Below, piece by piece: positions 8,368 through 34,961 of a DNA stretch of 64,000 nucleotides. Each line of letters opens with the position of its first letter. Positions within the stretch are counted from its first letter, which is position 1. The notes under the pieces were generated by a model. That model worked only from the letters and a program-made list of their open reading frames with translations, did no database searches and had not been told where the DNA came from. The stretch is from Prochlorococcus sp. AG-409-B05. GTDB lineage: Bacteria > Cyanobacteriota > Cyanobacteriia > PCC-6307 > Cyanobiaceae. Where the stretch lies: contig QCJK01000007.1 of assembly GCA_003216075.1 (NCBI GenBank), positions 1 through 64,000 of the forward strand, given 5' to 3'. The translations under genes and the position numbers were made by a program.

Positions 8368-8616
8368 TCAAAAACTTTTTTTTGTTTTCAATTTGGATTG
8401 ATATACCGCACCATTACAAACACCTACAGCCAAAGAGTCCTTCGCCTTTTCACTCCATCCATTTAGATCGGGCGTTTCATTAATCCATACACGTGTGCTA
8501 TCTAAACAACGATTCCAATACGCAGCTTGCCTCGAAACAGGTACAAGCTCTATAGCGATGCACGACACGCCCAAAGCAATAACACCAATGAAAGCTTTCT
8601 GAAGTGAATCAACCAT
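8368..8616 (-). CDS. CNG-signature one-helix protein, member 1
   Basis: This 82-residue protein has a membrane helix (FIGVIALGVSCIAIELVPV) followed by an external segment with the shared pattern: PVSRQ, then NRCLDST, and a final CNG near residue 68. The same arrangement (P-x-[AS]-[KR], a Cys plus hydrophobic residue, then CNG) occurs in the proteins at 14304, 32346 and 34749. The two Cys could form a disulfide in the periplasm. Function unknown. Confidence 0.65.
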   Translation of the reverse strand: MVDSLQKAFIGVIALGVSCIAIELVPVSRQAAYWNRCLDSTRVWINETPDLNGWSEKAKDSLAVGVCNGAVYQSKLKTKKSF

Positions 8617-9058
8617 AATCAGAGAAAAGAGAAGAGGGTTTTCTAAATTGACCGAGGTAGCTAAACATAGTCACCAGATTCGCATTCAATTAGATGAAAG
8701 ATGAAATTCTCTCAGGCAAGACCTATTCCGATTAGTAGCAATCCAATAATAAATATCTATTTCTACAATTCACTGAATGAAAAAGTTGACAAATATATTT
8801 ATAGGCAACTAAAGGTAGGCAAATAAAGAAGCAATACACACACCATAAATAGTGGTACTTCTAAATTTTAATATGCACAACACTATCAGCAGTATGTATC
8901 TAGCGATGGCAAAAAGCTTTTCAACTCACTAGTCTCATCTTGAATAGGAAATAAGGACTGCTCGGTCTCATGCTCAAACAAAGCCTTCATTCTATATAGA
9001 GGGGGGTATTGAAAAGAGATAATCAACTTTTCAGTTATCACCAGTAGAAGACGAAGCG
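8617..9058. other. Intergenic stretch
   Basis: No gene, RNA or repeat was recognised. The stretch is AT-rich with frequent stops in all frames. Confidence 0.5.
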
Positions 9059-9196
9059 ATGCAACTTGAAAGCTATAAAAACATAACTATGAGTTTTCCC
9101 GACTGTTTAGGTGTAAGAACCGAAGTGAGTGACATTTACCGTATAAACTCATTCGGTTTACATCAACAATCTTTACTGATATTGAAGGCAAACTAA
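9059..9196 (+). CDS. Possible 45-residue small protein
   Basis: An ATG at 9059 opens a 45-codon ORF with mixed polar composition (LGVRTEVSDIYRINSFG) just upstream of the coiled-coil gene remnant at 9219. Another frame also looks partly protein-like here, so this may be the decayed upstream part of that gene. Not recognised. Confidence 0.3.
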   Translation: MQLESYKNITMSFPDCLGVRTEVSDIYRINSFGLHQQSLLILKAN

Positions 9197-9218
9197 TGGG
9201 GTTCACGCACAGCGCACC

Positions 9219-9495
9219 ATGCACACATCTCTATTCGACACTTACTTCGCTAACTCTTTATTCTCTCCAATAGATAAAATTTATGTTATCGCTGATAGCC
9301 AGCCAAAGGAGTTCAAACGTAAACAACGACTAGAAGAACTTGACAACCTTGAAAATGCACGTAAGAAGCTGGAGAAGACTTATGACACGTATCAAAATCA
9401 TCGATGAACGTGAGCATGAACTACAAGAAGAACTTACAGCACTTCTCTCGACAACAAAGAAGACTGAATTACTAGCTGAAGAAAATAGAAAATAA
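9219..9495 (+). pseudogene. Coiled-coil gene split by a frameshift
   Basis: The first frame (9219-9407) encodes MHTSLFDTYFANSLF and a charged helix ending KKLEKTYDT. A different frame (9382-9495, ATG TRIKIIDEREHELQ) continues the same helix to EENRK. The remnant at 3716-3865 aligns with both parts in one frame apart from its stop, which shows that the two parts belong together. Either the gene is broken or the second frame is now translated separately. Confidence 0.55.
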
Positions 9496-9740
9496 ATTAA
9501 GCTGTCTCAAAGCTATAAGCTAAAAAGCTTTACCACACTTTAGAGGTTCAAACAAACCCCTTAGATGTGGAGCTTTTAGATAACACTTAAATTCCCTTAA
9601 CTATCAACTATCCCTTGAACAGAGATAGGAAAATAATTTAGTAGGGAAAAATTTTAGTCTTCATTTTCTACTTCTTTTGTTACTTAGTATTCCCAAGCAT
9701 CAAGCTCTGAATAAGCTTGGGATTAATAAAAGCTAAAGTA

Positions 9741-10415
9741 ATGACTTTTAATACATCCTCCGTGACGTTAATTCCTGGTAGCGATTGCAAAGATGCTTTC
9801 AAAACTGCCTTTGAAAATCGATATACCTGGGAGCCTGATTTTTATGGCTACCAAGGAAAATGTATTTTTGAAGAAAATGATCGTATTCATCAAGGCATAT
9901 TCAAAGTAAATGCTGACTTAAAAGCTCATGTGGAGGGGATAGTAGACGAATCTATTCAAAAGGCCATCTCATCTCAACTATGGGAAGTCTCAATCCATCG
10001 TGTACGAAGAAGCTTTGAGGAAGTCCATGGTCAGAACACATTTACTGCTGGGAAAAGTAATGCAATTGGTACGGAGGTGATTGTCGGAGGTAAAAATGCT
10101 GGAGATAAATATCGCATCAAAAATGGTGTAGTGAGTATGGTTCACCGTCACATCCACGGAACCTTGATAATTATCATCACTAAAAATACAATAGATACAG
10201 GGAATGGCTACCTTGCAAAGACATATAACAGTCAATACTTCGATCCTTCAACAGAAACACCTAGCAGTGGCGTTAGCTCTTTCACTGATACGTTTATACC
10301 TTTAAAAGATAGCGGCACCTGGGTCTTAACTGAAAGAATGGTCAAAACAGATAGCCATGACGAAGCGCCTTCCACCAAAAAGGTTTTTAAATTTATTGAC
10401 ATGACAATTAGTTGA
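9741..10415 (+). CDS. DUF3386 family protein
   Basis: This protein of about 224 residues starts at the ATG at 9741; a TTG at 9717 is less likely. It carries the DUF3386 pattern: DAFKTAFENRYTWEPDFYGY, QKAISSQLWEVSIHRVRRSF, VSMVHRHIHGTLIIIITK and SGVSSFTDTF. The family is typical of cyanobacteria and resembles a lipocalin-like or LolA-like half-barrel, but the function is unknown. A stem-loop lies about 40 bases downstream. Confidence 0.85.
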   Translation: MTFNTSSVTLIPGSDCKDAFKTAFENRYTWEPDFYGYQGKCIFEENDRIHQGIFKVNADLKAHVEGIVDESIQKAISSQLWEVSIHRVRRSFEEVHGQNTFTAGKSNAIGTEVIVGGKNAGDKYRIKNGVVSMVHRHIHGTLIIIITKNTIDTGNGYLAKTYNSQYFDPSTETPSSGVSSFTDTFIPLKDSGTWVLTERMVKTDSHDEAPSTKKVFKFIDMTIS

Positions 10416-11047
10416 TTATGGCGTTTCAAGTTCAATCCTCAACATCTAAAAGAACAGCAGGCATTCTCTGACAATGCCTGCTGAAATACAGAACAATTCC
10501 ATTCGCTAAGACTTTTTGGCTAATACATCAGCATTTTTCGAAATGATTAATACAACCAATTCAAATTTTTTGTAAAGGATTGAATAGCAATATCGATCAA
10601 ACATAACCGGGCGGCTTTATGTTTTCCTTGAATTCCATACAAAGAAATAGTCGAAATAATACTAATAATCATTCCACTAACCCATCTAAAGCCAGTAACA
10701 ACCTAGGCTTTACATAGACTTCAATTATATTTCTGAGAACATTATAACAATATTTGGCATTCTCTAATTTTTCCCCTCCTAATTTACTGGCGATATCAGA
10801 ATAAGAAAACCAAACATCAATTACTTCACCAGATCTACAGTTTAAAACCTTGAGACTTCAAGATTTTCCCTCAATTGTTCTTATGATTCAAGAACTAGAG
10901 CAACTTGCCAAATATTCTGAAAGCGAATTATCAAGCTTAATATCTAAGATTGAATCTAATCCCTAAATATTTTTCAGTTTACTAATTTAAAGCAAACATA
11001 AAATTAAGCTTTTAGATTAATCAAGCTTCTCTTGTTTGTTGAGATTT
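10416..11047. other. Intergenic stretch with a stem-loop and a nonsense-interrupted reading frame
   Basis: A stem-loop of 10 bp (10457-10483) follows the DUF3386 gene. On the plus strand, about 10755-10966 reads as one open frame except for a single TAA. It ends in a convincing helix (IQELEQLAKYSESELSSLIS). It has no clear start and is probably a decayed small gene. Confidence 0.35.
10457..10483. terminator. Stem-loop after the DUF3386 gene
   Basis: The arms AGCAGGCATT and AATGCCTGCT pair perfectly around a 7-base loop. There is no T-run on the plus side, while the minus side has a short T-rich tail. It is probably an end-of-transcript or 3'-protecting structure. Confidence 0.5.
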
Positions 11048-11800
11048 TCATTCGACATCTACGAATTCATAATCTGCATTTAAACCCATTTTACTCCCTG
11101 CAACATATTTTTGCTCAGATACTCCATCTTTATTGAAAATCTTGAAAGTCGCATTAAAAGCAATTGACCTTCTCTCATCTGGCCCAATAAAAGGATTTAC
11201 ACTATGCATGAGATAAGACGGAAATATAAGCATCATGCCTTCTTTCGGTTCTATAGAAACCATTCCCGACTCAAAGATGTCTCCATCTCTTTGCGCTGTT
11301 GAACTATAAAAGAAATTAATATCACCATCATTCTCATACAAGCCTTTTTTAGACTCGATTCTTCGTCTACCTTTAACCATAGGAGTTTTCAAATAAATCA
11401 CAGAACTAACTTCACATGTCCTATGATTGTGAATAGGATTGTATTCATTTTCATACTGTGAGACCACCCAGGCATCATTAATAAATGAATCAATAATTGA
11501 TTGATTATCATATAAGCCTTTAATCCTAGCGCAATGGATTATATAAGATCTAACACATGAATCAAGAAAACTATAAACATCAAAATCAATAAAGTCAGAT
11601 TTAAATATCTTTTTTTCAAGATTTATCACTCCTGCTAGTGTCTCACCATGAGACTTCCTATTCCCTAAACTCAGTATTTTGTCAGATAGGGTCAACAAAG
11701 AAATAAAAATTTTTTCAGGTAAAATAACTTCAGCAATGAGAGGTCCAAAATAGTTTTTCACCTGGAATGACTTCGGCTCACTATTAAACTGCACTGTCAT
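11048..11800 (-). CDS. 2OG-Fe(II) oxygenase superfamily protein
   Basis: The 250-residue protein matches the TIGR02466-type 2OG-Fe(II) oxygenase layout. NPIHNHRTCEVSSVIYL holds the first metal ligands, FPSYLMHSVNPF holds the distal His, and RRSIAFNATF supplies the Arg that binds 2-oxoglutarate. Family members hydroxylate proteins or small molecules and are common in marine cyanobacteria and their phages. The substrate is unknown. It has no operon partner, and its codon use is AT-rich, so transfer through phage is possible but not shown. Confidence 0.75.
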   Translation of the reverse strand: MTVQFNSEPKSFQVKNYFGPLIAEVILPEKIFISLLTLSDKILSLGNRKSHGETLAGVINLEKKIFKSDFIDFDVYSFLDSCVRSYIIHCARIKGLYDNQSIIDSFINDAWVVSQYENEYNPIHNHRTCEVSSVIYLKTPMVKGRRRIESKKGLYENDGDINFFYSSTAQRDGDIFESGMVSIEPKEGMMLIFPSYLMHSVNPFIGPDERRSIAFNATFKIFNKDGVSEQKYVAGSKMGLNADYEFVDVE

Positions 11801-11860
11801 AGACTCATTCCAAAAGTTTGAGATTATTTACTATTATAGAAGAGAATTAAATGTTCACAG

Positions 11861-11968
11861 ATGATTAATTTTTCTCCTTACATACTTTTACTTGTTTTAA
11901 TCATTATCAGTCCGTCAAATAATATAAACTCAAGCAACCTAGAATCACTTTACAATATAGCTTCTTGA
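11861..11968 (+). CDS. Possible 35-residue secreted or membrane peptide
   Basis: An ATG at 11861 opens a 35-codon ORF with a hydrophobic core (YILLLVLIIISPS) followed by a short Ser/Asn-rich tail. A perfect 12-bp stem-loop starts 19 bases after the stop. The compact gene-plus-hairpin unit supports a real transcript, but there is no homology evidence. Confidence 0.35.
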   Translation: MINFSPYILLLVLIIISPSNNINSSNLESLYNIAS

Positions 11969-12301
11969 GCAAAGGTGATCCAACTTTTCAATTGCGTAAT
12001 CAGTCTACGCAATTGAATAATTATTTACAATCTTCCTAAAAGAAATTATAAATTAATTGTGGATTTCAATCATTTTTATTCTCAAACAATTACTCCTAAC
12101 TCTCTAAAACTTTAGGTTTTTGGTCTCAATTAGAATTTCAGATTAATTTCTTAATCCCATAAAAGTATTAGATCTCGAGTAGATTCTTAAAAAATATTTT
12201 GACACAAATTTTAGAAAATATCCACCCTGTCAGCACTAAATTTAATATACATAATTCTAATATGGCTACCTTCCTTTTAGAAAACCAACAGCAGTAAGCC
12301 C
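11969..12301. other. Intergenic stretch with one stem-loop
   Basis: Apart from the stem-loop at 11987-12017 no gene or repeat is recognised. The stretch is very AT-rich. Confidence 0.5.
11987..12017. terminator. Perfect 12-bp stem-loop
   Basis: The arms TTCAATTGCGTA and TACGCAATTGAA flank a 7-base loop. There is no T-run on the plus strand. It sits 19 bases after a 35-codon ORF and may end that transcript. Confidence 0.5.
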
Positions 12302-12940
12302 TCAAAACAAACTCATTTGATATAGAGATGGTTTATTGATTGGTTCGACCTTCCATTCCTCGGGGCTCCATCCAATCAAGATAGGTTCCAATGCTTTCAA
12401 AGAAAGTCTATCTTTGACTGGTGCTATCCACTCTTCTTCTAATCCATTTGGAATGATCACTGGCATTCGATTATGAAATGGCCTTACTAAATCATTTGGA
12501 GGAGAAGTTAACACACAACAAGTTTGCAGTTCACTACCTTCAGGACTGGTCCAAATATTCCAAATTCCTGCCAGCCAAAATGGATTGGAATCTTTCCTAC
12601 TTATACGATGACTCTTTTCATGAAATCCATTGGCAGGTAAGACACATCTTCTATGTCTCCAACTTCCTCTGAATAATTTCTTTTCTCCAACTGTTTCAGC
12701 CCTTGCATTAAAAGGCCTTGGCATTGATGGATCAAAGGGATCTTTAGCCCATTCAGAAATAAATCCCCAAAGCATTAGAGTAGTGGATATTTTTCCCTCA
12801 TTCTTAAGGACAAGAACAGGATCAGTTGGTTTAATCAATTCCTGTGTAGTATATTTCTCCTTAAAACCTGCGGGAAGATCCTTCTTTAAAACTAATGGTA
12901 GGTTCTCAAATTTAGTTGTAAGCTCAAAACTTCCACACAT
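12302..12940 (-). CDS. SRAP/HMCES family abasic-site DNA-protein crosslink protein
   Basis: The start is set at 12940 because the family needs Met-Cys at the N-terminus: after Met removal, Cys2 forms the covalent bond with abasic sites in single-stranded DNA. The sequence then shows MCGSFEL, RPFNARAET (active-site Asn), VLPANGFHEKSH (Glu) and FHNRMPVII (His), all expected for SRAP. The 212-residue length is normal. The role is shielding abasic sites during replication, useful under UV or oxidative damage. An upstream in-frame start would add seven residues and bury Cys2. Confidence 0.92.
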   Translation of the reverse strand: MCGSFELTTKFENLPLVLKKDLPAGFKEKYTTQELIKPTDPVLVLKNEGKISTTLMLWGFISEWAKDPFDPSMPRPFNARAETVGEKKLFRGSWRHRRCVLPANGFHEKSHRISRKDSNPFWLAGIWNIWTSPEGSELQTCCVLTSPPNDLVRPFHNRMPVIIPNGLEEEWIAPVKDRLSLKALEPILIGWSPEEWKVEPINKPSLYQMSLF

Positions 12941-12961
12941 AAGCAAATTGGAAAGCAACAA

Positions 12962-13146
12962 TTAGGAGTGAGTAAATAGTTTGACTTCTATAATTACAGA
13001 ATAAGGAGGATCATAATTATCTGCACCTGAACAAAAAAATTTCTGAATATATTATGCAAGAAATCATATGCATCATCATGATTCTCTAAGAGATATTTCG
13101 TCATTTCACCCTCATCCCTATCGTGACTAATGATTGTGTATTGCAT
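12962..13146 (-). pseudogene. Small gene with a frameshift at a seven-T run
   Basis: An ATG at 13146 opens MQYTIISHDRDEGEMTKYLL and ENHDDAYDFLHNIFRNFF, then runs out at 12994. In the -1 frame the reading continues naturally (CSGADNYDPPYSVIIEV) to a TAA at 12962. The switch lies at a run of seven T (13039-13033) that is in register as T TTT TTT, the classic bacterial -1 slippery form. It is either a homopolymer indel or a programmed frameshift. The family is unknown. Confidence 0.55.
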
Positions 13147-13158
13147 TGGTTTTATAAA

Positions 13159-13386
13159 TTAGTAATGTGGAGGGTGTGATTCCTCAATAGGAAAGTAAGC
13201 GCGATCTTCATTGTCTGGGTCTCTACTCCTAATGCTTTCTTCTACCTCATCATAGGAGTCGTCATCATAGTTCTTCTCGCGCTGAGTCATTGCCTGTTGC
13301 TCTATCTTCCTATTGGAAAATAGCACCAAAACTTCTAAGTACATCTGTCTGTCATCAATCAATAAAGAGTTATTATTGAATCTCAT
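13159..13386 (-). CDS. Small acidic hypothetical protein
   Basis: The 75-residue product has a hydrophobic N-terminal half (MYLEVLVLFSNRKI) and a very acidic C-terminal half (YDDDSYDEVEESIRSRDPDN). It lies 12 bases upstream of the frameshifted gene on the same strand. No family is recognised. Confidence 0.5.
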   Translation of the reverse strand: MRFNNNSLLIDDRQMYLEVLVLFSNRKIEQQAMTQREKNYDDDSYDEVEESIRSRDPDNEDRAYFPIEESHPPHY

Positions 13387-13597
13387 ATTTCAACCCTAAT
13401 GGGGAATCCTTAATAGCGACGCCCTTTCTCCTTATTGCTACTAAGCAAATTTACTTCAAAGCAGTCTGTTCATAACATAAGCACCTATTATTAATTAAAA
13501 TCAATGTGTTAAGACGAATTAAGAGATGTGTTAACAACTTAAATTTCAATGAAATAGAAATTATGCTTTATGAATTAATCAATTTTTAACACAACTA

Positions 13598-13780
13598 ATG
13601 GAATTAGATCCAGTAACAAAATGGTTGATCAGAGCAGCCTCCCTTATGATAATTTTCATCGGTTTAATAATTACTTTGGCTTTCCCTATTATTGCCTTAA
13701 CAATCAATTCAAAACTTTCGATAGCCCAAAATTCGTTTAAAGAAACGATAGAACTTATAGTTCAACAACTTTTGAGCTAA
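13598..13780 (+). CDS. Small one- or two-helix membrane protein
   Basis: The product is 60 residues: a short amphipathic start, a long hydrophobic segment (AASLMIIFIGLIITLAF, then PIIALTI) and a polar tail. ATG start. Function unknown; typical of the small membrane proteins in this region. Confidence 0.5.
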   Translation: MELDPVTKWLIRAASLMIIFIGLIITLAFPIIALTINSKLSIAQNSFKETIELIVQQLLS

Positions 13781-13855
13781 TTTAATGATTTTGATTAATC
13801 ATATTTACAGAATAAATAGACATAAAATAATTTACTACATTTAATCAACTATCAG

Positions 13856-14071
13856 ATGATGTGTTCTGATTTGGCTGGTAATTCATCAAAGTGGATAAAA
13901 TTTGCTGATCTTTGTAATAGGATTTCAGATGTTAATAGCCTTTTCTCCGAACTTACTAGGACCGAATCAGAGGACTATTGCTTAGCAGCTTTTTGGAAGT
14001 TTTGTGATGCCTATAAATTTAGTATAGACCAAGAATCATATCTTAATCAAATGATCTCTTTACTCTCGTAA
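13856..14071 (+). CDS. Hypothetical helical protein (71 aa)
   Basis: The product is soluble and mostly helical (WIKFADLCNRISDVNSLFSE, DYCLAAFWKFCDAYKFSI) with four Cys. It is not recognised. It begins at a double ATG 76 bases after the small membrane protein on the same strand. Confidence 0.5.
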   Translation: MMCSDLAGNSSKWIKFADLCNRISDVNSLFSELTRTESEDYCLAAFWKFCDAYKFSIDQESYLNQMISLLS

Positions 14072-14303
14072 AGAGATATCTACCTACATATAAAGACATC
14101 CCAAAACTTATCAGCCCAGGCTAACTAATTTTTTATACTAATGACTCGCCACCCTGATAATTTTAAAAGTAATTCTTGTTTTATTTTTTTGATATCAAAA
14201 TCAATACATTCATGAAATGTTCAACAATAAAATTCAATATTCAAATAGGTGAACTTATAAAAGTTTAGTGCTTTTCTGTTCTTCTTTAATACTGTCTTAT
14301 TCT

Positions 14304-14531
14304 TCATTTCACTTGATATACCTTTGAACGTCCATTGCACTTTCTCACAGCCCATGATATTGGAGCTTTCACGCTTTCTTGTTCAACACAAATGCTTTGA
14401 TAGTTGGCCCATTTGGCTACTGGACGCAAACTAACGACTATCAAAGCTAGGCAAATAGCACATAAGAATAAAGCAAATCCAGTTAAAATTTTAATATAAT
14501 CAAATTTTTCATCGTCTCTGGTATCGATCAT
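14304..14531 (-). CDS. CNG-signature one-helix protein, member 2
   Basis: The protein of about 75 residues has a charged N-terminus, a membrane helix (ILTGFALFLCAICLALIVVS) and an external tail with RPVAKWANYQSICVEQ and WAVRKCNGRSK. It shares the PVAKW ... C ... CNG pattern with the proteins at 8368, 32346 and 34749. The start is the ATG at 14531 rather than the TTG before it. The two Cys are well placed for a periplasmic disulfide. Function unknown. Confidence 0.65.
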   Translation of the reverse strand: MIDTRDDEKFDYIKILTGFALFLCAICLALIVVSLRPVAKWANYQSICVEQESVKAPISWAVRKCNGRSKVYQVK

Positions 14532-14720
14532 CAAAATTTGATGGCATGAGCCTAGTTACTACTAAGAATATTTTCACCTAGCCATTTTTGCAACTTTCAT
14601 GAATCCACCTTCTTAGTCTGACTAGCCTTTAAAAAAAGTTGTCTCGACTTTGGACAGTCGAAAGACTTGTTAACCAATTGTTGACGAGAGAAACTCAGAG
14701 ATATAGCCAACTCAAATTAA

Positions 14721-15230
14721 ATGCCTTCTTTGCTGACTTTGCTGGTGTACATCCTTGGAGGTGCAGCCTTAGGGTCTCTCATGATTCTAACTGGCATCCC
14801 TGCTGCTCCACTCTTGGGTGCAATTTTTGGAGCTGGATTATTGAGCATTAGTGGTCAACTTGAGGTTGCGGCTTGGCCCTTAGGAACAAAAACCATACTT
14901 GGAATAGGAATAGGAACTGTCATTGGTACAGGAATTAATAGAGAAACATTAGGGGAATTACAATTACTTTGGAAACCAGCATTGATCATAACTTTTACTC
15001 TTTTAATAACAGGAATTCTGGTCGGACTACTAGTTAGCAAATATCTCGGAGTAGAAACAGTAGTTGCCTTATTAGGAGCAGCTCCTGGAGGTACTATAGG
15101 AATGAGTCTAGTAGGCTCAGAATTCGGGGTTGGAGCAGCTGTTGCGGCTCTACACGCTGTCAGATTAATAACAGTTCTATTTTTAATACCTTCAATAGTC
15201 AATTTTCTAGCTCCTAAAACCCTTCCCTAA
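14721..15230 (+). CDS. AbrB-family membrane protein, half size
   Basis: The 169-residue polytopic membrane protein carries one AbrB repeat (IPAAPLLGAIFGAGLLSISG, later GAAPGGTIGMSLVGSEFGVG), with about five helices. Full-length AbrB-type transporters contain two such repeats, so this half-size form would have to dimerise. The family is thought to be membrane transport or regulatory, with uncertain substrate. Stand-alone gene. Confidence 0.8.
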   Translation: MPSLLTLLVYILGGAALGSLMILTGIPAAPLLGAIFGAGLLSISGQLEVAAWPLGTKTILGIGIGTVIGTGINRETLGELQLLWKPALIITFTLLITGILVGLLVSKYLGVETVVALLGAAPGGTIGMSLVGSEFGVGAAVAALHAVRLITVLFLIPSIVNFLAPKTLP

Positions 15231-15593
15231 AGCCAACAAAATCAAATGACTTAATGAAAATCTCTCTAACAGAAATAGTCGGATATAATCTCTACGAGTA
15301 GTCTTAATAGTTTTTAAAAAGAGTTCTAAAAGAACCAATCTTAAAAATTAACTATAGAGATATTAGATAATCTATTATATTTTTTATAATTGAGCACCTC
15401 TTTAAACAATCAAAATTAACTTATCGAACATTCTATAGTATTCAAAAGTCAATTTGGCTCAGCTTTATTTTAGTTTTAGCAGGACTGAACGTATTATATT
15501 AAATCATTAATCTGGTTTAATAAATATCAAACCTATAAACATCTATTAATTAAGTCTAACCAATACTTTAAATACCTAACTCAAAATAAACGC
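15231..15593. other. Intergenic stretch
   Basis: No gene, stem-loop or repeat of note was recognised in 363 AT-rich bases between two converging genes. Confidence 0.5.
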
Positions 15594-15947
15594 TTATTCC
15601 TTCTCAAATAATTCAACTAGCCTTTTGATATCATCTTTATAGATTAATAACGTTTTCAAATCATTAAATCCACTTTTCTTGAGAAAACCTAAAAACCCTC
15701 GTTGAAACTGAAGACCCTTTTCCATTCTTGATTCATCTTCTTCATATAAGGGTTTTAAATTCTTTAGCATTGCTTCATATGCACTACGAGCTTCTTCTGA
15801 GCTGAACTTAGTTCCATCACTCGCCTCAATTCCCTGAACAGTTCCCTGCCTAAGAATCAAAGTCAAGGTTCCAATAGTAAGGGCTATACCTAATAATCCA
15901 ATCCCAATAGATTGAATCGGGCCAAGCGTTAGAAATGTGTTTCCCAT
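15594..15947 (-). CDS. Hypothetical protein with an N-terminal membrane helix
   Basis: The start is placed at the ATG at 15947 (MGNTFLTL), giving 117 residues. A membrane helix (IGIGLLGIALTIGTLTLIL) is followed by a soluble helical domain (EEARSAYEAMLKNLKPLYEE). No family is recognised. It follows the small secreted protein at 15965-16120 on the same strand with a 17-base gap, so the two are probably one operon. Confidence 0.6.
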   Translation of the reverse strand: MGNTFLTLGPIQSIGIGLLGIALTIGTLTLILRQGTVQGIEASDGTKFSSEEARSAYEAMLKNLKPLYEEDESRMEKGLQFQRGFLGFLKKSGFNDLKTLLIYKDDIKRLVELFEKE

Positions 15948-22711: not shown

Positions 22712-23251
22712 TTACACGTCAACTATTGTTGCCTTAGGAGCTCTCCTCCTGGCACGTCTGGCAGGTCTGGCAGGGCTAGAAGTACCATCAGGTTCAACTT
22801 TTTTAGCTATACGACTAGAAGCTGAACTCTGAACAGAAGTTGCTTGTTTTGTGAGAGATTTTTGTGATCTAGAATTTTTTGCTGTTGCTTTTTTAACTGC
22901 AGGAGCTTTTTCTGTTGTTTTAGCTCGACGTTTATTAGTAGAAGCATTCTTAACAGCTGTACTCTTACGTGTGCGATGAGAAAGTACAAGTGCCCACTCT
23001 TCTGCGCTGATGCTTGCTGGCTTGCTGCCATGAACCTCAGAAACCTTCGCAGCCTTTTCAATATCCTTAATTAAATTCTTCCAAGATGTTGCATATCGCT
23101 TATCAGATTGAGATTTGGCACCACTCTCCACGAGGGTCTCAACAACACCTTGAGCAGTTACTTTTTTACGACGACGATTGAAGATTTCCTTTTGTAGCTG
23201 AGCAATCATGGCATCAGCCTTTGCGCTCAAGTTGATGGTTATCTGAGCCAT
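22712..23251 (-). CDS. Histone H1-like DNA-binding protein, copy 2
   Basis: The 179-residue paralogue of the protein at 7454 shares a nearly identical first 95 residues (SAKADAMIAQLQKEIFNRRR, KVTAQGVVETLVESGAKSQS, EEWALVLSHRTRKS). Its tail is longer and less regular but still basic, ending PARPARRARRRAPKATIV. The conserved globular domain with a diverging tail is what linker-histone-like paralogues show. It probably binds DNA. It has no strong terminator like copy 1. Confidence 0.75.
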   Translation of the reverse strand: MAQITINLSAKADAMIAQLQKEIFNRRRKKVTAQGVVETLVESGAKSQSDKRYATSWKNLIKDIEKAAKVSEVHGSKPASISAEEWALVLSHRTRKSTAVKNASTNKRRAKTTEKAPAVKKATAKNSRSQKSLTKQATSVQSSASSRIAKKVEPDGTSSPARPARRARRRAPKATIVDV

Positions 23252-27550: not shown

Positions 27551-27757
27551 ATGGATAATTCCTTCTCACAAGGGTTGAAATTAAATAGCTTAACTTCCAC
27601 CACTTCATTGGTGATATGGTCAATGATTATTTTTTTAATTGCGCTGATAATAGGAATCAGTATAATCTTTAGAAAACAATTTAAAAACATTGAAAAAGTA
27701 AAAAATAATAAACTATCAGACCGATCTAATTCAAAAGGTTTTCAAGTAAAAAATTAA
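27551..27757 (+). CDS. Small one-helix membrane protein
   Basis: The 68-residue product has a polar start, one strong helix (LVIWSMIIFLIALIIGISII) and a basic tail (RKQFKNIEKVKNNK), fitting an N-out/C-in single-pass protein. The minus-strand ORF overlapping it has poorer composition. Function unknown. Confidence 0.55.
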   Translation: MDNSFSQGLKLNSLTSTTSLVIWSMIIFLIALIIGISIIFRKQFKNIEKVKNNKLSDRSNSKGFQVKN

Positions 27758-27895
27758 AGCCAAACAAATCATTGATCAATGCTAAACCTTACTCTCACTG
27801 CAGACCCCTGAAATTAGACGATAGTTATTCAGGAATGAAATACACCCGATCCCTCAAATACCAAACACATAAGGTGACCTTCATAGCGATGCATC

Positions 27896-28063
27896 CTAGT
27901 TCGATGCATTAAGGACGCAGACCCTGCCAAAGACAAGCCTGAGGCGCTCTATGTAGCGTATATGTAAAAAGGGGCTTCCACTGCTAGTGTCCCAAGGTGC
28001 TTCTGTCAAAGCATGATCTAACTGCTTAGTACAGCCTTCACAAAACAGAGTCCAATCAATCAT
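27896..28063 (-). CDS. Possible 55-residue protein with an N-terminal CxxC
   Basis: From the ATG at 28063 the reading is MIDWTLFCEGCTKQLDHALT and continues with HIRYIERLRLVFGRVCVL. CEGC could bind a metal or be redox active. Its start codon overlaps the start of the divergent gene at 28062, an unusual arrangement that lowers confidence. Confidence 0.35.
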   Translation of the reverse strand: MIDWTLFCEGCTKQLDHALTEAPWDTSSGSPFLHIRYIERLRLVFGRVCVLNASN

Positions 28064-28259
28064 GAAAAACAAACAGAATTTAAATAACCATATAGAACGC
28101 AATCCTCAAAGAACAATACAATTTGATAGCTCATTTTCTACTAGGCTAGCAGAGTTAACTAAGAATCAAAATCTACCTGCAGACGATGTTCTAATACAAA
28201 AATATGGGACATTAGAATTAGCATACAAGGCAATAGGGATTTCTCCTTCTATAAATTAA
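28062..28259 (+). CDS. Hypothetical soluble protein (65 aa)
   Basis: The product is polar and helical (FDSSFSTRLAELTKNQNLPA, VLIQKYGTLELAYKAIGI). The composition and ATG start look genuine. Function unknown. Confidence 0.55.
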   Translation: MKNKQNLNNHIERNPQRTIQFDSSFSTRLAELTKNQNLPADDVLIQKYGTLELAYKAIGISPSIN

Positions 28260-28321
28260 AGAACAAAATCAGAAGATGGCTCGATTTTTCTCTAAGATTT
28301 TTATAACCATCAAATACTAAG

Positions 28322-28507
28322 ATGAATTTTCTTGCTACAGGCAGTAGTTTTTTAGGACTATCTCCATCATCGGATCAATTAATGATTATTAATTTATCTG
28401 CAATCCTTGTAGGTATAACATTCAATGCCCCACAGAAAGTGATTAAATGGGGTGGGCTTATTATTGCAGTAGTTACTACAACTTGCGGCTTGTGGTGCAA
28501 TCATTAA
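28322..28507 (+). CDS. Small two-helix membrane protein
   Basis: The 61-residue product has two hydrophobic segments (LMIINLSAILVGITF and GGLIIAVVTTTCGLWC). It is followed four bases later by a very long hairpin. It may be co-transcribed with the gene at 28062. Function unknown. Confidence 0.55.
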   Translation: MNFLATGSSFLGLSPSSDQLMIINLSAILVGITFNAPQKVIKWGGLIIAVVTTTCGLWCNH

Positions 28508-28510
28508 ATG

Positions 28511-28559
28511 TTTGTTATCCCCTGAGAGTTCTCTAGAGAGACTCTCAGGGGATAACAAA
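28511..28559. terminator. Long near-perfect palindrome after a small gene
   Basis: The arms TTTGTTATCCCCTGAGAGT and ACTCTCAGGGGATAACAAA pair over 19 bp, and the spacer CTCTAGAG is itself self-complementary. There is no long T-run on either strand. It lies between convergent genes ending at 28507 and 28587, so it may end both transcripts. Confidence 0.65.
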
Positions 28560-28586
28560 GAAATCAAATCCACAAAGAAACCCTAC

Positions 28587-28802
28587 TTACAGAAATCTCT
28601 GATCATCGTGGGGAGACTTTTTAAGAATTCTCCTTTCTACTGAAAAAATTAATAACCAAGCAAATCCCAAAGTTAAACTCAAAAGGTATTCTTGTTTTAA
28701 TAAGTCAATAACTGCAAAAGTACTAGCAAGTATCGCCATAGTACGTAGCCCCCAAGATTGAATAGTAATTTTTGACCTTATATTTTTTTTGAAATCACTC
28801 AT
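28587..28802 (-). CDS. Small two-helix membrane protein
   Basis: The 71-residue product has a basic start (SDFKKNIRSK), two hydrophobic segments (RTMAILASTFAVIDLL and LLSLTLGFAWLLIFSV) and a charged tail. Function unknown. Confidence 0.55.
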   Translation of the reverse strand: MSDFKKNIRSKITIQSWGLRTMAILASTFAVIDLLKQEYLLSLTLGFAWLLIFSVERRILKKSPHDDQRFL

Positions 28803-28962
28803 ATTCTGCTCTTAGGTTATTGGGAGCCACCAGAAATAATTGTAAAAGCATTACCAGCCTCAATCAAGAAGATACAAATAAGATTAACATAGAGATTCGA
28901 TTATTTTATAATCAAAGTATTCATCTTTAAAAAACACCTCAATTCCTATCTCATTATAAATC

Positions 28963-30000
28963 ATGGGGAATAAATCAACGCAACCTAATAACTATAGCCT
29001 CATTGACTCAGGTCTTTTACTGCAATATAAAAATGATCTTAAATTCCCAAAACAGGATTTTGAACAGCTTCTATTTGATCTTGGATGGCCTAATAGCTTG
29101 GCTTGGCTTGAACATTGGTCCCAGAATGATGTGCAAAATCTTTGTATGTACTCCCGCCCAAGATTTACAAGACCTGACTGGATCTTAGGTATTGGATTAA
29201 CGTTGCTTTCCGACATAGAAAGATTTCTGAATTCTGAAGCAAATCAAATAATCTTCGGGATTTCAGGCCTTCCAGGATGCGGCAAAACAACTCTAGGAAA
29301 GTGGATTGAACATTGTTCATCTGAGCTTAAGTGGCCAGTTTGTGTCGTTTCGTTAGATGACTTCTACTTGCCTGCGACAGAAATGGAAAAGGCAATGTCA
29401 AATAACCCTTGGAATGTCCCAAGGGGTCTGCCAGGCAGTCATTCGATAGATCTAATGCTCAGTGCTATAGACAAATGGGAGCAAACAGGTGTATTGATCA
29501 CCCCTCGTTTCGAAAAATCCCTACGAGGTGGTCTTGGCGACCGTTACGGATGGCGTAAATCTAAACCCAAATTAATCATCATAGAAGGATGGTTTGTCGG
29601 CTGTGATCAAGCAAGCAACCCAGAGAGTATCGATCAAGAGAAAGACCTCTTTCCACCGCTATCAACTGAAGAAAAGTACTATCGGGAGGTTGTTCAACAT
29701 GCCCTAGAGAGATATCAGCCTATATGGAAAAAGTTAGAACGTATATGGCAGATAAAACCTATTGATTTTATCTCTACTTGCACATGGAAGAAAGAACAAG
29801 AGATAAATATGGAAATAAAAAAAGGTTCTTCACTAAAAGGCGAAAAACTTGAATCTTTCATTCGAATGATTCAAGCAGCCATTCCACAGAAAAGTCTTCT
29901 ATCAATCAAAGCTGATGTTATAGCTATAATAAATACGAAAAGACAAGTGAAGTGGCTCGGAAGAAATTCACAAGAAAATGCCCAATCAACAATTTTATAA
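28963..30000 (+). CDS. D-glycerate 3-kinase (plant/cyanobacterial type)
   Basis: The 345-residue protein is a P-loop kinase: Walker A GISGLPGCGKTTLGKW, then VCVVSLDDFYLP, NPWNVPRGLPGSHSIDL and a Walker B-like LIIIEGWFVGC. The DDFYLP and RGLPGSHD-type motifs are typical of plant-type glycerate kinases. It phosphorylates D-glycerate to 3-phosphoglycerate and completes the photorespiratory return to the Calvin cycle. It stands alone in accessory-looking DNA. Confidence 0.9.
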   Translation: MGNKSTQPNNYSLIDSGLLLQYKNDLKFPKQDFEQLLFDLGWPNSLAWLEHWSQNDVQNLCMYSRPRFTRPDWILGIGLTLLSDIERFLNSEANQIIFGISGLPGCGKTTLGKWIEHCSSELKWPVCVVSLDDFYLPATEMEKAMSNNPWNVPRGLPGSHSIDLMLSAIDKWEQTGVLITPRFEKSLRGGLGDRYGWRKSKPKLIIIEGWFVGCDQASNPESIDQEKDLFPPLSTEEKYYREVVQHALERYQPIWKKLERIWQIKPIDFISTCTWKKEQEINMEIKKGSSLKGEKLESFIRMIQAAIPQKSLLSIKADVIAIINTKRQVKWLGRNSQENAQSTIL

Positions 30001-30169
30001 CAAAAGTATTCAGATTAGCGCTCAGAGGTTTGGCCATAATATTAGTTCTTGATTTAGAATAAGTTTCAATAACAAGGGACTGAAGGTTTGAATAAATAGT
30101 ATTTAAAGGCTATAATTATTAGCTATATATAAATTATTTGTCAATGAATCTAACCTTGCATGGCCCAAA

Positions 30170-30361
30170 ATGACTGCTCAACTAACAGCGCCAGGCTTAA
30201 TAGCCAGAAGCCTACCAATCGCGTTGGGGATAGGAATATCTTGGCTAGGAATAACTCTTATTCGAAATGAGTCAAGACTTGTCAATAGAAAGTCAGAGCT
30301 CGAAGAGATGCTTAAAGCAAGGTCAAGAAAAAAGCGTCGTAAACTACTAACAAATAACTGA
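30170..30361 (+). CDS. Small one-helix membrane protein with a basic tail
   Basis: The 63-residue product has one helix (LIARSLPIALGIGISWLGIT) and a very basic C-terminus (KARSRKKRRKLL), probably cytoplasmic. ATG start. Function unknown. Confidence 0.55.
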   Translation: MTAQLTAPGLIARSLPIALGIGISWLGITLIRNESRLVNRKSELEEMLKARSRKKRRKLLTNN

Positions 30362-30455
30362 TTTGAAATTTCATTTAACCATTGAAGCTAATTGAGCGAG
30401 TCTTATATAAACAAGAACTCTAAAAATTGAATCTGAAGATAAAATCAAGCTTCAG

Positions 30456-30683
30456 CTATTCAATAAGGTTAAGCTCATCTGTAAAGAACCAACTTCTTGA
30501 CCCATTTTTAAATTCTAATATTAATGCGAATTGATTCCCATCAACCATTTTGTAACCTCCCATCCACTTCCCAATAGGTTCTGCAATGATTTGCTGTAGT
30601 AGATTTTTAGAAATCCTATCCCTAACACGTCTAAAATCAATCCTAAGCATTTGGCCCTTGACAAGATTTTCAATTTGAATCAT
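30456..30683 (-). CDS. DUF2862 family protein, copy 1
   Basis: The 75-residue protein has the DUF2862 pattern: LVKGQMLRIDFRRVRDRISK, GGYKMVDGNQFALILEF and SRSWFFTDEL. The family is cyanobacterial with an SH3-like small barrel of unknown function. A second, longer copy lies at 33936-34376. Confidence 0.85.
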   Translation of the reverse strand: MIQIENLVKGQMLRIDFRRVRDRISKNLLQQIIAEPIGKWMGGYKMVDGNQFALILEFKNGSRSWFFTDELNLIE

Positions 30684-30828
30684 TTGTCTATATCCTTAAG
30701 AAGGATTAAATTAGAGTATTGACCCTAGGAAGAATTCAAGAAGAATTTAAATAAATCAAAATAATGTCTTTCGTAATGAAATACAATTACATTACGATTG
30801 AACCAAGTCAAATAAAATATGAAGAGAG

Positions 30829-31059
30829 CTAGCAATGAGACCACTGAAAAAATAAAAGCTGAAACAATAACGTAATCAATACACCCTTGAAAAAACAGAG
30901 CCAAAGAAGTCCGTAATTAGTAATTCCTAGTTTTTTTTGATACCAAAAAATAAACTTCTTATGGTTCGTAACAAATTCAACCCTGGGGTTGAATTTGTTT
31001 TTTCTAGAGGGAGGGGTTGGAATACGAACCCAATTGCCTTTCTGATCAAAGGGGCTCAT
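30829..31059 (-). CDS. Hypothetical membrane protein
   Basis: From the ATG at 31059 the 76-residue product has a polar N-terminal part (GNWVRIPTPPSRKNKFNPRV) and a C-terminal helix (LLWLCFFKGVLITLLFQLLF). An in-frame start at 31104 would add 15 residues. A terminator-like hairpin is embedded in its coding sequence (30970-30999). Confidence 0.55.
   Translation of the reverse strand: MSPFDQKGNWVRIPTPPSRKNKFNPRVEFVTNHKKFIFWYQKKLGITNYGLLWLCFFKGVLITLLFQLLFFQWSHC
30970..31002 (+). terminator. Terminator-like hairpin inside a minus-strand gene
   Basis: On the plus strand AACAAATTCAACCC pairs with GGGTTGAATTTGTT around two bases and is followed by a T-run. It would end plus-strand transcription, although no plus-strand gene lies just upstream. 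It falls within the codons of the gene at 30829-31059. Confidence 0.5.
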
Positions 31060-31158
31060 TAGTTTATAGCAACTAACCAACTTAAACGTATATCCTAATG
31101 GCAATCAATAAGTTTCTGAGCAACAAAAGCAAGCCCAAAAAATCAGTCAATTAACGGC

Positions 31159-31519
31159 CTAGGACAACCAGGCTCCACCTTGTTTTAAGGCATCTAAGAA
31201 TTTCTTATTAGAATTAGAAAAACCGACTAAAGGATTTTTAATTCCTTGCTCACTAGGCTCATTGTTTTTAGAAGTCCAAAAACCAGAGAACAAAAGGGTT
31301 CTTCTGGGCCACCTAAGCACAACCATCGATTCAAGACTCGATCATATCCTTGTGATAGCTAATAATTAGCATGCACCCCAATTTTTATAACTTTACCTTC
31401 GGGATTACTCCATCTGATTCACTAACACCAAAAACAGTCCAACCTATGAACGAGTTTTCCAATTTAAAAGCTCTAAAAGCAATAAGAGAGCAATGAAATT
31501 CATAGAAGAGAAAACCCAT
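31159..31519 (-). pseudogene. Unknown gene broken by frameshifts
   Basis: An ATG at 31519 starts MGFLFYEFHCSLIAFRAFKL, then ENSFIGWTVFGVSESDGVIP, ending TAA at 31385. Other frames continue with GVHANY and QGYDRVLNRWLCLG, and a third with RTLLFSGFWTSKNNEPSEQG and KKFLDALKQGGAWLS to TAG at 31159. Together they read like one protein of about 120 residues cut by two frameshifts. The last part alone has an ATG at 31326 and could still be made. Confidence 0.5.
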
Positions 31520-31587
31520 CTTCTATTACAGCTGTGAAAGTGAATCCTAAGCTTGAGAGGCATCCCTTCTTAACCTATAATTAAAAT

Positions 31588-31716
31588 ATGAATCAAGAAA
31601 AACAACACTCCAAACTTCTCAAACTCCAAACCAAGGCAGAAAGCTGCCTATCAAGAGAAGAAGCGCAGAAACTAATTAAAAAGGCTGATAAAGCCCATAG
31701 AAAATTATCTGGGTGA
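31588..31716 (+). CDS. Small basic helical protein (42 aa)
   Basis: ATG at 31588 encodes MNQEKQHSKLLKLQTKAESC, LSREEAQKLIKKADKAHRKL and SG. The product is a single amphipathic, Lys-rich helix hairpin. No family is known. The composition is clearly protein-like. Confidence 0.5.
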   Translation: MNQEKQHSKLLKLQTKAESCLSREEAQKLIKKADKAHRKLSG

Positions 31717-31853
31717 TAAATAAAGACCCTTTAGCTACTAGAAAGTATCTTCTACTAAAATAAAACTAAACACAATCAATGAATTTATATTTTAATCAAA
31801 ATGTGTTAATGATTTAAAGAGTAAAAATAGCCTTATCTCAGTTATTATAAGCG

Positions 31854-32003
31854 TTAATGCCATCTAATCTTTTCTGGATTCTTTTTCTCAATTTCCTTAA
31901 GCACAAATATAAGTGCTGCAATTGAAAGCGGCCCAGCCACAGAAGCAACTACTAGGAAAATCTTAATTTCTGGGCCAAGAGTTGCAAGAAAATAATGATG
32001 CAT
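31854..32003 (-). CDS. Small one-helix membrane protein (49 aa)
   Basis: From the ATG at 32003 the product is MHHYFLATLGPEIKIFLVVA followed by the rest of the helix (SVAGPLSIAALIFVLKEIEK) and a charged tail. A GTG at 32066 in frame would extend it to 70 residues. It follows the gene at 32069-32248 on the same strand. Confidence 0.55.
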   Translation of the reverse strand: MHHYFLATLGPEIKIFLVVASVAGPLSIAALIFVLKEIEKKNPEKIRWH

Positions 32004-32068
32004 GTTTGATTTTGGTTCCCCTGATAAGAAAACTTTAGTATTCAGCCTTTTTTTGATATAAGACACGA

Positions 32069-32248
32069 TTAGTCATTTGTATTACTATCTTCCTTCTTGC
32101 CCTTAACATAATTAGAAAAAAGCGCATATGCAGCGCCAAAAAGCCAAGAGCCAACTAAAATGGATATCACTACTAAGGCAATCTGAATAGCGCCTGCGTA
32201 GCCACCATCATTAGGGCCATACTGCATTAAGGGATCAAGAGTATCCAT
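32069..32248 (-). CDS. Small one-helix membrane protein (59 aa)
   Basis: ATG at 32248 encodes MDTLDPLMQYGPNDGGYAGA, a helix (IQIALVVISILVGSWLFGAA) and a charged tail (KGKKEDSNTND). The pattern fits a single-pass protein with the N-terminus outside. It heads a likely two-gene operon with the gene at 31854. Confidence 0.65.
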   Translation of the reverse strand: MDTLDPLMQYGPNDGGYAGAIQIALVVISILVGSWLFGAAYALFSNYVKGKKEDSNTND

Positions 32249-32345
32249 GAAATAAAGATCATTGTTTTAGCCATTCATATTCTTTCTTGTTTTAAAAGAA
32301 TACAACCAACTTCTTAGCAAAACTCTCTATTGCTGTTCCAAATAG

Positions 32346-32651
32346 TTATTTTGATTGGTCAGATGTGTTCTCATTTCTTTGAGGGGTTGAACCATTACAT
32401 AAAGAAACCGACATCGCCTCAAGTCCTGCTGCTCCTGCTGATCTAAATCCTGGAACCTCAGAAAGGAAGCTAACCGTGGTGGCCACACAACCATTAAAAC
32501 TACTCGCATAACGAGCCATCGGTCCAACTCTTAGAGCTATACCAAAAAGACTCAAAGAGCCCAAAGCAACTCCAATCATCAAAACAGCACCAGTCAATTG
32601 GGAATGAATACTTAAATCCAACCTTTTAGAGAACTTCTTTGTTTCAGTCAT
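32346..32651 (-). CDS. CNG-signature one-helix protein, member 3
   Basis: From the ATG at 32651 the product is 101 residues: a polar start, one helix (AVLMIGVALGSLSLFGIALR), then GPMARYASSFNGCVATTVS, a Gly/Ala-rich stretch and SVSLCNGSTPQ. It shares P-x-A-[KR] ... Cys ... CNG with members at 8368, 14304 and 34749, but has a longer spacer between the Cys residues. Function unknown. Confidence 0.65.
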   Translation of the reverse strand: MTETKKFSKRLDLSIHSQLTGAVLMIGVALGSLSLFGIALRVGPMARYASSFNGCVATTVSFLSEVPGFRSAGAAGLEAMSVSLCNGSTPQRNENTSDQSK

Positions 32652-32787
32652 TACAGACTCTGCTACATCCACACATAGTCTAGAAATTCTTTAAAGAAGC
32701 CTTTCACTTTCTAAGGCATCTCTACAATCTTTGCCAACTGTGCCATAAACCTCAACAATAAAGTTGATCCTCAATTTGAAATTCTTT

Positions 32788-33081
32788 TCAATAATCTCCC
32801 ACAAAAGGGTTTTTGGGATGGATCAATAGAGCAGCATCATTTTCATATGCCTCAACCTCAAACCAGGTAAAAACCAGCTGATCATCAGAGTCACGATCAA
32901 AAGTACGTTGCAGCATTTCAAGTTCAAACTCCTGGACTAGGGAATCGATGGTAGAAACCAGCGCTAATAAATCTTTTAATTTTTCCTGCTTATCTTGAAT
33001 CCGAGAATGTGAATAAAAGGAAATCTGCAGCAAAAAGTTATCATAAAAAAATTCTATGGATAATAATAAATAGTTGATCAT
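32788..33081 (-). CDS. Hypothetical helical protein (97 aa)
   Basis: The product has an aromatic N-terminus (INYLLLSIEFFYDNFLLQIS), a charged helix (RIQDKQEKLKDLLALVSTID) and an acidic C-terminal part (FTWFEVEAYENDAALLIHPK). ATG at 33081 is preferred over the TTG at 33087. No family is known. Confidence 0.55.
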   Translation of the reverse strand: MINYLLLSIEFFYDNFLLQISFYSHSRIQDKQEKLKDLLALVSTIDSLVQEFELEMLQRTFDRDSDDQLVFTWFEVEAYENDAALLIHPKNPFVGDY

Positions 33082-33486
33082 AGACAATAATTTAATCTAA
33101 TTAGTTGTTAAACAAAATCTTTTTGATATCGACAATATGTACCAAGGGCTCATGTAAATATTTACCCATATCCTACAATGATCAAGTGTTTACGTCATGC
33201 TAGATTGACTTTTTATGCGAACACCAAAAAGTCCTAAATCGCAGCTAGAACCATGCAAACTGCTCTTAATGCTATATAATCTATATGCTTAATTAATATC
33301 TTTTTTTACTTACTAAGAAATAAAAAGGAAAAAATCATTTAAGAAATCTAGTTCGCAAAGAAAGAGAATTAATTCTTTTTAGTGAGATCACTAATAAGTA
33401 TCATGAATGAAATATAAACTTGAAAGACAAAGTAAACCTTGTTTCTCTAATTGAAGAAAAAACAGGTTGAACCTATACTCAAAAAG
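33082..33486. other. Intergenic stretch
   Basis: No gene or structure recognised in about 400 AT-rich bases. Confidence 0.45.
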
Positions 33487-33609
33487 CTAGTCTTGACCTT
33501 TAATTCTATTGTTATCTTCTGAAGTTATTACCTTAACCTCAAAATCAACCAAAAAGCCAATCAAAACCAACAAAATCCCAACAATTCGCCAATCAGGAGA
33601 TAAGGCCAA
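33487..33609 (-). CDS. Small one-helix membrane protein (40 aa, TTG start)
   Basis: A TTG at 33609, with TGGAG seven bases upstream, opens MALSPDWRIVGILLVLIGFL, VDFEVKVITSEDNNRIKGQD. The helix and charged tail look genuine. The frame is open a few codons further up but has no better start. Confidence 0.5.
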   Translation of the reverse strand: MALSPDWRIVGILLVLIGFLVDFEVKVITSEDNNRIKGQD

Positions 33610-33717
33610 GACTTGACTCCAGTTTCTTTCAGCATTTTAAACCTTCACGTCCACTTTTTTGCAGCAAGAGTAAAAGATCTTTTCGTTCCAATGAGCAACC
33701 CCTAACCTAAGAACCTA

Positions 33718-33843
33718 TTAAAAATTCGCAAGCCGCATTGGATTTACTGATATTCTTGAATCAAGATAAGTATCAAAACCATTGACTTTAATAAATTCAA
33801 TTACTTTGTTAACCACAAAAAAAGAAAGAATCTTATGCATCAT
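33718..33843 (-). CDS. Small protein (41 aa)
   Basis: A double ATG at 33843 opens MMHKILSFFVVNKVIEFIKV followed by NGFDTYLDSRISVNPMRLAN and F. It looks like an amphipathic helix plus a polar tail. No family is known. Confidence 0.45.
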   Translation of the reverse strand: MMHKILSFFVVNKVIEFIKVNGFDTYLDSRISVNPMRLANF

Positions 33844-33935
33844 TAGAATAAATCAAGATAGAAAAATAGAACAAAGACCTATTTTAAATACTGGCTTAAT
33901 AATAAAGCCTAATCATTAAAGAAGGTTTGCAATAG

Positions 33936-34376
33936 TTAAAAAACATCCTTTAATGAGTAAATAAGCCATTTTGAGAAGATGAAAGGATTAAATAAATGAT
34001 ATATAGAATCAATTTGAGGTGGTATTTCACCTTTGCTTACGTAATAAGACTGATTATTAGGCGACAGGAAATTTCGTGAAGGTACTACTGCAGAAGGGTC
34101 TAATTCATCTATATCAGGAGATTTTAATCGTAAATCCTCATTATTAATTACCACGACTTCGTTAATAAAAAACCAACTTATAGATGAATCACTCAATTCA
34201 AGGACCACCCCTACGCCTGTCCCATCGGTCATTTTATAGTCCAAAACGATACCAGAAGGATCATTGGCAAGCACATTTGAAAGCCCTAGTGGAATTCGAT
34301 CTCTAACTCGATCAAGGTCCACCATTACCTTTGACCCTATTGAAATGAGAGTAGAAGTTTGTGAATTAGCCTGCAA
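33936..34376 (-). CDS. DUF2862 family protein, copy 2, extended
   Basis: The 146-residue protein starts at a TTG and has the DUF2862 core in its first 75 residues (KVMVDLDRVRDRIPLG, LDYKMTDGTGVGVVLEL, ISWFFINEV). A C-terminal extension of about 70 residues ends in FNPFIFSKWLIYSLKDVF. Copy 1 at 30456 lacks the extension. The role is unknown. Confidence 0.8.
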   Translation of the reverse strand: MQANSQTSTLISIGSKVMVDLDRVRDRIPLGLSNVLANDPSGIVLDYKMTDGTGVGVVLELSDSSISWFFINEVVVINNEDLRLKSPDIDELDPSAVVPSRNFLSPNNQSYYVSKGEIPPQIDSIYHLFNPFIFSKWLIYSLKDVF

Positions 34377-34748
34377 GGCCTAATAGGTGGTGCAATCCAC
34401 CGCAGAACAACAGTGTGAACTGTAAACGGCAGTGCTCCCTAGTTCCAATAAAAGTTATGACACAAATTTATTCAACCAAAGTTTCTGAAGCTAATTCAAA
34501 TAGAACTTAATTCTCTAGATATAAAATTAATTGGATAATAAATAAACTTTATCCTCCAGGTAAGTTGGCTTAAATTTTTCTAAATACTCTACAAGAATAT
34601 CAATTTATATCCTAATTAGATAGACAATATATGTACAAGGTATAACTCTTTAATCTTTATTATCTGCTTTCTTGTCTAAATTAAATGATAAGAAAGTACT
34701 AGGCTTACAATAAATCAGATTTAGAAAAATAATTCCATATTTTTATGT
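34377..34748. other. Intergenic stretch
   Basis: No gene, repeat or terminator recognised. Confidence 0.45.
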
Positions 34749-34961
34749 TTATTCTCCTCCTCCATTACAACTCCATACCTTTGCGGGTATCCCTGCATTA
34801 TTAGTCCCATCAATTCTAAAAGTTTTTTCAATGCACTCATTCTGATTTCTAGTCCATTTAGCAATAGGTGCAAGCGATACAGAAATCAATACAAGACTTA
34901 CAGTGCTTACAACAGCTAATACAGGATAAGCATGAGTCCTAATCATTTCCCTAGGTGTCAT
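34749..34961 (-). CDS. CNG-signature one-helix protein, member 4
   Basis: The 70-residue protein has a short polar start, a helix (AYPVLAVVSTVSLVLISVSL), then APIAKWTRNQNECIEKTFRI and ends VWSCNGGGE. It is the shortest and cleanest member of the set at 8368, 14304 and 32346. ATG start. Two Cys are placed outside the membrane. Function unknown. Confidence 0.7.
   Translation of the reverse strand: MTPREMIRTHAYPVLAVVSTVSLVLISVSLAPIAKWTRNQNECIEKTFRIDGTNNAGIPAKVWSCNGGGE

Follow-up and report, generated by a model that had tools for sequence, protein, structure and literature searches.

Few phototrophs have a genome as streamlined as that of Prochlorococcus. The thylakoid complexes include small single-pass accessory subunits such as PetG/L/M/N and the small Psb and Psa subunits. 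The proteins described here resemble these subunits in their small size, in having one membrane helix and, probably, in a short extension on one side of the membrane. They differ in having no sequence or fold match to PetG/L/M/N, Psb or Psa, in the absence of an operon with core subunits, and in a putative two-cysteine external hairpin, which would be atypical of such subunits. A second point of comparison is PetP (PF11061), a peripheral subunit attached to the cytoplasmic face of cytochrome b6f (PMC9342900); it is not homologous to the two-cysteine family, and accessory PetP paralogues adjoin several family members in low-light genomes. The Prochlorococcus/Synechococcus signature proteins (PMC2823733) include many lineage-restricted hypothetical proteins of similar size; in the accessible part of that report, none mapped to the family and no paralogous two-cysteine family is described. 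NsiR6 and CP12-type proteins are likewise small and cyanobacterial with conserved cysteines, but they have two cysteine pairs, and their description (PMC5126843) does not contain a one-helix C...CNG plan.

A family confined to picocyanobacteria

We analyzed a 64,000-nucleotide stretch of Prochlorococcus DNA (the window), in which a preliminary description had noticed four small minus-strand reading frames of a common plan. The four frames and their translations were recovered as described (Table 1), and each protein has one helix, P-(V/I/M)-(A/S)-(K/R), a cysteine about 10 residues on and Cys-Asn-Gly near the C-terminus. The Cys-Asn-Gly had been called final; it is present in all four proteins, but 3 to 14 further residues come after it. 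Following the helix, the subfamily D protein has PVSR, C37 and CNG at 67-69, with the tail CNGAVYQSKLKT, and the subfamily A protein has PVAK, C48 and CNG at 65-67, with the near-invariant tail ISW(A/G)VRKCNGRSKVYQVK. The corresponding elements are PMAR, a cysteine and then SLCNGSTPQ in the subfamily C protein, and PIAK, C43 and KVWSCNGGGE in the subfamily B protein. Pairwise identity among the four is only about 20-37%.

Table 1. Positions of family members and neighboring features in the window
Feature	Positions	Strand	Length	Sequence or domain	Score or context
Subfamily D member	8368-8616	-	82 aa	ELVPVSRQAAYWNRC...GVCNG	held-out profile E 1.8e-9
Subfamily A member	14304-14531	-	75 aa	RPVAKWANYQSIC...RKCNG	held-out profile E 1.7e-19
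Likely sigma70-type promoter of subfamily A gene	14565-14593	-		TTGCAA-N17-TATTCT	
AbrB-family membrane protein	14721-15230	+		PF05145	divergent neighbor of subfamily A gene
Second accessory PetP-like gene	30456-30683	-	75 aa	PF11061	E 7.5e-18; about 1.9 kb from subfamily C gene
Subfamily C member	32346-32651	-	101 aa	GPMARYASSFNGC...SLCNG	held-out profile E 1.7e-11
Accessory PetP-like gene	33936-34376	-	146 aa	PF11061	E 3e-20; between subfamily B and C genes
Subfamily B member	34749-34961	-	70 aa	APIAKWTRNQNEC...WSCNG	held-out profile E 5.4e-31

To avoid circularity, the test profile was trained without any sequence from the window's own genome. This held-out profile matched exactly these four reading frames in the window and no other (E 5.4e-31 to 1.8e-9), and on these matches the homology of the four proteins, despite their low identity, is not in doubt. 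The profile search that had been proposed as a check also returned further members with both cysteines conserved, strongly favoring the idea of a family. We defined the family by one hydrophobic helix, usually P-(V/I/M/L)-x-x, a cysteine about 8-11 residues on and a near-C-terminal C-x-G, usually C-N-G, features that all four window proteins display. An ending of the form C-x(9-45)-CNG occurred in only 3 of 1,099 unrelated reading frames with a hydrophobic segment, and one frame with such an ending looks like a further distant relative. A 104-residue open frame missed by the profile (L083 5125-5436, plus strand; the same frame is found in L106) has a hydrophobic segment and a ...VAVQRCNGATE tail. 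It is probably related to the family at a still greater distance, and the family may therefore exceed the count given here.

Of the eight confident copies in the genome to which the window belongs (52 contigs totaling 1.80 Mb, completeness about 91%), four are in the window and two on contig C8; C2 has one, and C15 has one in a 177-aa form whose N-terminal stretch is long and charged. A ninth copy, on C22, is doubtful. Within the same taxonomic family, 171 of 251 genomes gave a match at E <= 1e-4, with 1-8 copies each, as did 111 of the 167 good-quality genomes. All 34 positives of a phylum-wide draw (292 genomes), and all 20 of a class-wide draw with a broader profile (194 genomes), fell inside this taxonomic family; among the sampled genomes no member was found outside it. 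The named relatives of subfamily B were all from Prochlorococcus single-cell or environmental genomes. By putative ecotype labels, read from genome size, low-light-like genomes have about 3-8 copies, small high-light-like genomes 1-3 and marine Synechococcus-like genomes 1-5, while several large-genome relatives have none.

Searches of Pfam, NCBIfam and PHROGs gave no convincing score for the family, by the curated cut-off where one exists, and the best PHROG match (E 0.0025) covered the helix only. Solved structures in the PDB gave no match either, the best E being 4.4 with the sequence profile and 8 with Foldseek and an AlphaFold2 model. We found no match in phage, plasmid or viral-contig sequences and rejected such an origin; no Rfam element was found in the region. 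A literature search, with subscription papers mostly outside its reach, found no description of the family. The earlier suggestion of an undescribed family is thus borne out, with no curated-library name and one held-out profile joining all four proteins: the family is real, unnamed and restricted to Prochlorococcus and its closest relatives.

Upstream of the subfamily A gene, the promoter-like pattern TTGC(A/T)A-N17-TANNNT recurs at 46-62 nt in 14 of 26 orthologues, compared to 0.3% of random 160-mers. An upstream block of about 25 nt is also conserved in one group of B genes. This upstream conservation supports transcription, without proving it.

Subfamilies, cysteines and the predicted tail

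A tree of 95 rows, in which the sequences are short and many forks are open, recovered groups A to H nearly without conflict (10 label changes compared to 66 in shuffles); the groups had been named from tail motifs, so this agreement is a consistency check. Each window copy has closer kin in other genomes than within its own genome, indicating that the four are old paralogues. A recent local expansion was rejected by the tree, which assigns the copies to four different old subfamilies. The expansion in one accessory region that had been proposed therefore did not hold up, as these subfamilies are common to other genomes and four more copies lie elsewhere in the same genome. Median dN/dS was 0.15 for A, 0.17 for B, 0.15 for D and 0.24 for E, with too few pairs for C, and by these estimates the orthologues are under purifying selection. 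Low-light lineages retain up to 8 copies of a family that is absent from curated libraries, and paralogy retained under purifying selection implies a real, specific role.

One set of B sequences, mostly from AG-402 single cells, carries a coiled-coil-like insert between the helix and the tail while the tail is unchanged, suggesting that the tail is the functional end of the protein. Subfamily E has a long charged coiled-coil-like stretch ahead of the helix, and subfamily F, the most widespread, extends to marine Synechococcus-like genomes. Subfamily G has an extra and strongly conserved N-terminal module ahead of the helix, LPWWVELLFVQIGLPDxWL, as in L011 1498-1827 on the minus strand (G000:C2:107354). 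We considered this module (LPWWVELLFVQIGLPD) as a functional clue and set it aside: convincing matches came only from picocyanobacterial genomes, and every tail read was that of a G member.

The C...C-x-G pattern was held by all 128 distinct members at E < 1e-4 in the first set. A profile trained with all cysteines masked gave 128 matches at E < 1e-3, of which 127 still kept the pattern. A few very divergent members, found later, are without one cysteine or the glycine or are seemingly truncated; where the asparagine is replaced (CYG, CSG), the second cysteine and the glycine are mostly kept. The preliminary description had placed two conserved cysteines outside the membrane. The pair is indeed invariant, the non-cytoplasmic side is its most likely location, and there it probably forms a disulfide. 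The spacing between the two cysteines ranges from 16 to 42 residues across members, a variation more in keeping with a structural staple than with an active site. Also encoded in the window's own genome is a protein in which a VKOR domain is joined to a thioredoxin-like part containing WCPHC; in cyanobacteria and plants, LTO1-type VKOR-thioredoxin proteins oxidise proteins that are lumenal or exposed to the lumen (PMC6805722).

We modeled the subfamily B protein with AlphaFold2 from 40 aligned rows (mean pLDDT 86.5, pTM 0.56), and helices were predicted at residues 3-29, 31-46 and 58-65. The predicted fold consists of a membrane helix, a proline kink, a second helix bearing the first cysteine and a short helix ending in Cys-Asn-Gly. 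The flanking charges have a clear N-in bias in subfamilies E, F and G and are close to neutral in A, B, C and D; where there is a bias, it suggests that the N-terminus is cytoplasmic and the C-terminal tail external. Given the charge bias and the presence of a VKOR-thioredoxin enzyme of the lumen-oxidising type, a disulfide-stapled external hairpin would be the simplest reading of the tail.

Gene neighborhoods

Most members look monocistronic, and none shares an operon with core genes of a photosystem or of b6f. In the window, the two PetP-like genes flank the subfamily C gene, one on each side, and another contig of the genome, C20, carries its best-scoring PF11061 copy. Two or three PF11061 copies are common in low-light-like genomes, compared to one in most other sampled picocyanobacteria. 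We know of no description of the longer PetP-like type, about 126-147 aa in length. Of 39 accessory PF11061 copies, 9 had a family member within 2.5 kb, compared to 0.53 expected under a uniform null, and these members came from more than one subfamily. For seven complete genomes the proportion was 3 of 12 compared to 0.19 expected (P about 0.001 by rotation), for a proximity first noticed while browsing neighbors and not a preset hypothesis. The PetP-like paralogues were the only neighbor association to survive rotation, and their proximity could reflect a shared placement in flexible regions.

The PF05145 gene stays beside subfamily A in the five genomes examined, and in complete genomes the family copies are closer to each other than expected by chance. 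Genomes with the highest copy number mostly also have 6-9 Pcb antenna matches, and several B and E members have Pcb genes nearby. This Pcb association, striking in the first loci, was discarded, as it was not significant within 8 kb in complete genomes, nor under a rotation that respects gene clustering. A Pcb gene cluster at G000:C15:4863-8768 (in L078) lies about 2.5 kb from the subfamily E member, and one of its Pcb reading frames is split into overlapping pieces (6457-7083 and 7004-7507).

Possible roles of the family

We tentatively propose, with a probability of roughly 0.3, that the family consists of disulfide-stapled accessory subunits of thylakoid electron-transport complexes. The four genes are paralogues of a picocyanobacteria-specific single-pass membrane family in which the N-terminus would be kept in the cytoplasm. 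After the proline kink, the chain would form a short extracytoplasmic helical hairpin of two helices joined by the Cys-Cys disulfide, with the Asn-Gly behind the second cysteine terminating the last helix, and this hairpin would serve as a docking surface and not as an enzyme. Each subfamily probably binds one conserved partner, since its tail is near-unchanged while its membrane helix drifts. The likeliest partners would be thylakoid electron-transport or light-harvesting complexes, foremost a cytochrome b6f variant with an accessory PetP-like subunit; because PetP lies on the cytoplasmic side of b6f, our guess is that some members act as partner subunits that extend to the opposite face of the membrane. 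The proteins would then be small subunits with an accessory or tuning function, with the highest numbers in low-light Prochlorococcus.

Several findings speak against the accessory-subunit proposal: the missing operon link to photosystem or b6f core genes, the mostly monocistronic look of the members, the weak proximity to Pcb genes, a PetP-like proximity that was noticed in browsing and may stem from shared flexible regions, and the neutral charge bias of A, B, C and D. In addition, the marine Synechococcus-like genomes with subfamily F mostly have a single PetP-like copy, so an accessory-PetP link cannot cover the whole family. Docking of the proteins on thylakoid complexes, if real, would account for some of the difference between low-light and high-light lineages and would provide a defined, testable set of new subunits. 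A more elaborate version, which we consider rather improbable, is that low-light Prochlorococcus has several variant electron-transport or antenna assemblies, each with its own disulfide-stapled one-helix subunit and some with an accessory PetP paralogue, forming a lineage-specific combinatorial set that tunes thylakoid complexes to dim light.

Nearly as likely as the thylakoid proposal is a location in the plasma membrane, with the disulfide hairpin in the periplasm and the proteins serving envelope proteins or transporters as adaptors or regulators, the partner differing by paralogue. In sequence terms, an envelope location and a thylakoid one look alike. The single-pass N-in/C-out plan and the two cysteines fit such adaptors equally well, members cluster in flexible regions, and subfamily A is kept beside the AbrB-family membrane protein, with a phosphate-binding-protein-like gene within about 5 kb in the window and one other genome. 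However, the sole neighbor association that withstood rotation is with PetP-like genes, and no envelope gene was seen recurring beside several subfamilies.

A redox role, suggested in the preliminary description, is possible but not favored. The cysteine pair might be redox-active, with the tail sensing or relaying the redox state of the lumen or periplasm; it could, for instance, be a switch that the VKOR-thioredoxin protein reads. Both cysteines are invariant, an LTO1-like oxidase is encoded, and the window contains a DCC1-like thiol-disulfide oxidoreductase gene (PF04134; 24920-25300, minus strand). The tail, however, has no CxxC or other catalytic or thioredoxin-like motif, the cysteine spacing is variable, and a structural disulfide would account for both residues; with a mostly helical model and no thioredoxin fold, a thioredoxin-like or DsbA-like protein was rejected. 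The DCC1-like protein gives no sign of acting on the family; it lacks an obvious export signal, and the closest member is about 7 kb away.

We consider it very unlikely that the proteins are toxin-like or defence small membrane proteins of islands, such as type I toxin-like peptides or anti-phage membrane proteins. Their small size, one helix, clustered placement and variable copy number would agree with such a function, but long-term orthology with dN/dS of about 0.15, one subfamily widespread in the taxonomic group, the lack of any antitoxin or defence gene observed repeatedly alongside and the lack of phage homologues argue against it. Chance resemblance of unrelated small membrane reading frames, or of non-genes, which low pairwise identity and unmatched curated libraries might have suggested, is already refuted by the held-out E-values, the genome counts, the selection and the conserved promoter.

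The window also encodes two paralogues, at 7454-7942 on the plus strand (no Pfam match) and 22712-23251 on the minus strand. Both proteins have KADAMIAxLQKEIFNRRRKK conserved in the N-terminal part and a long histone-like tail rich in Lys, Ala and Thr.
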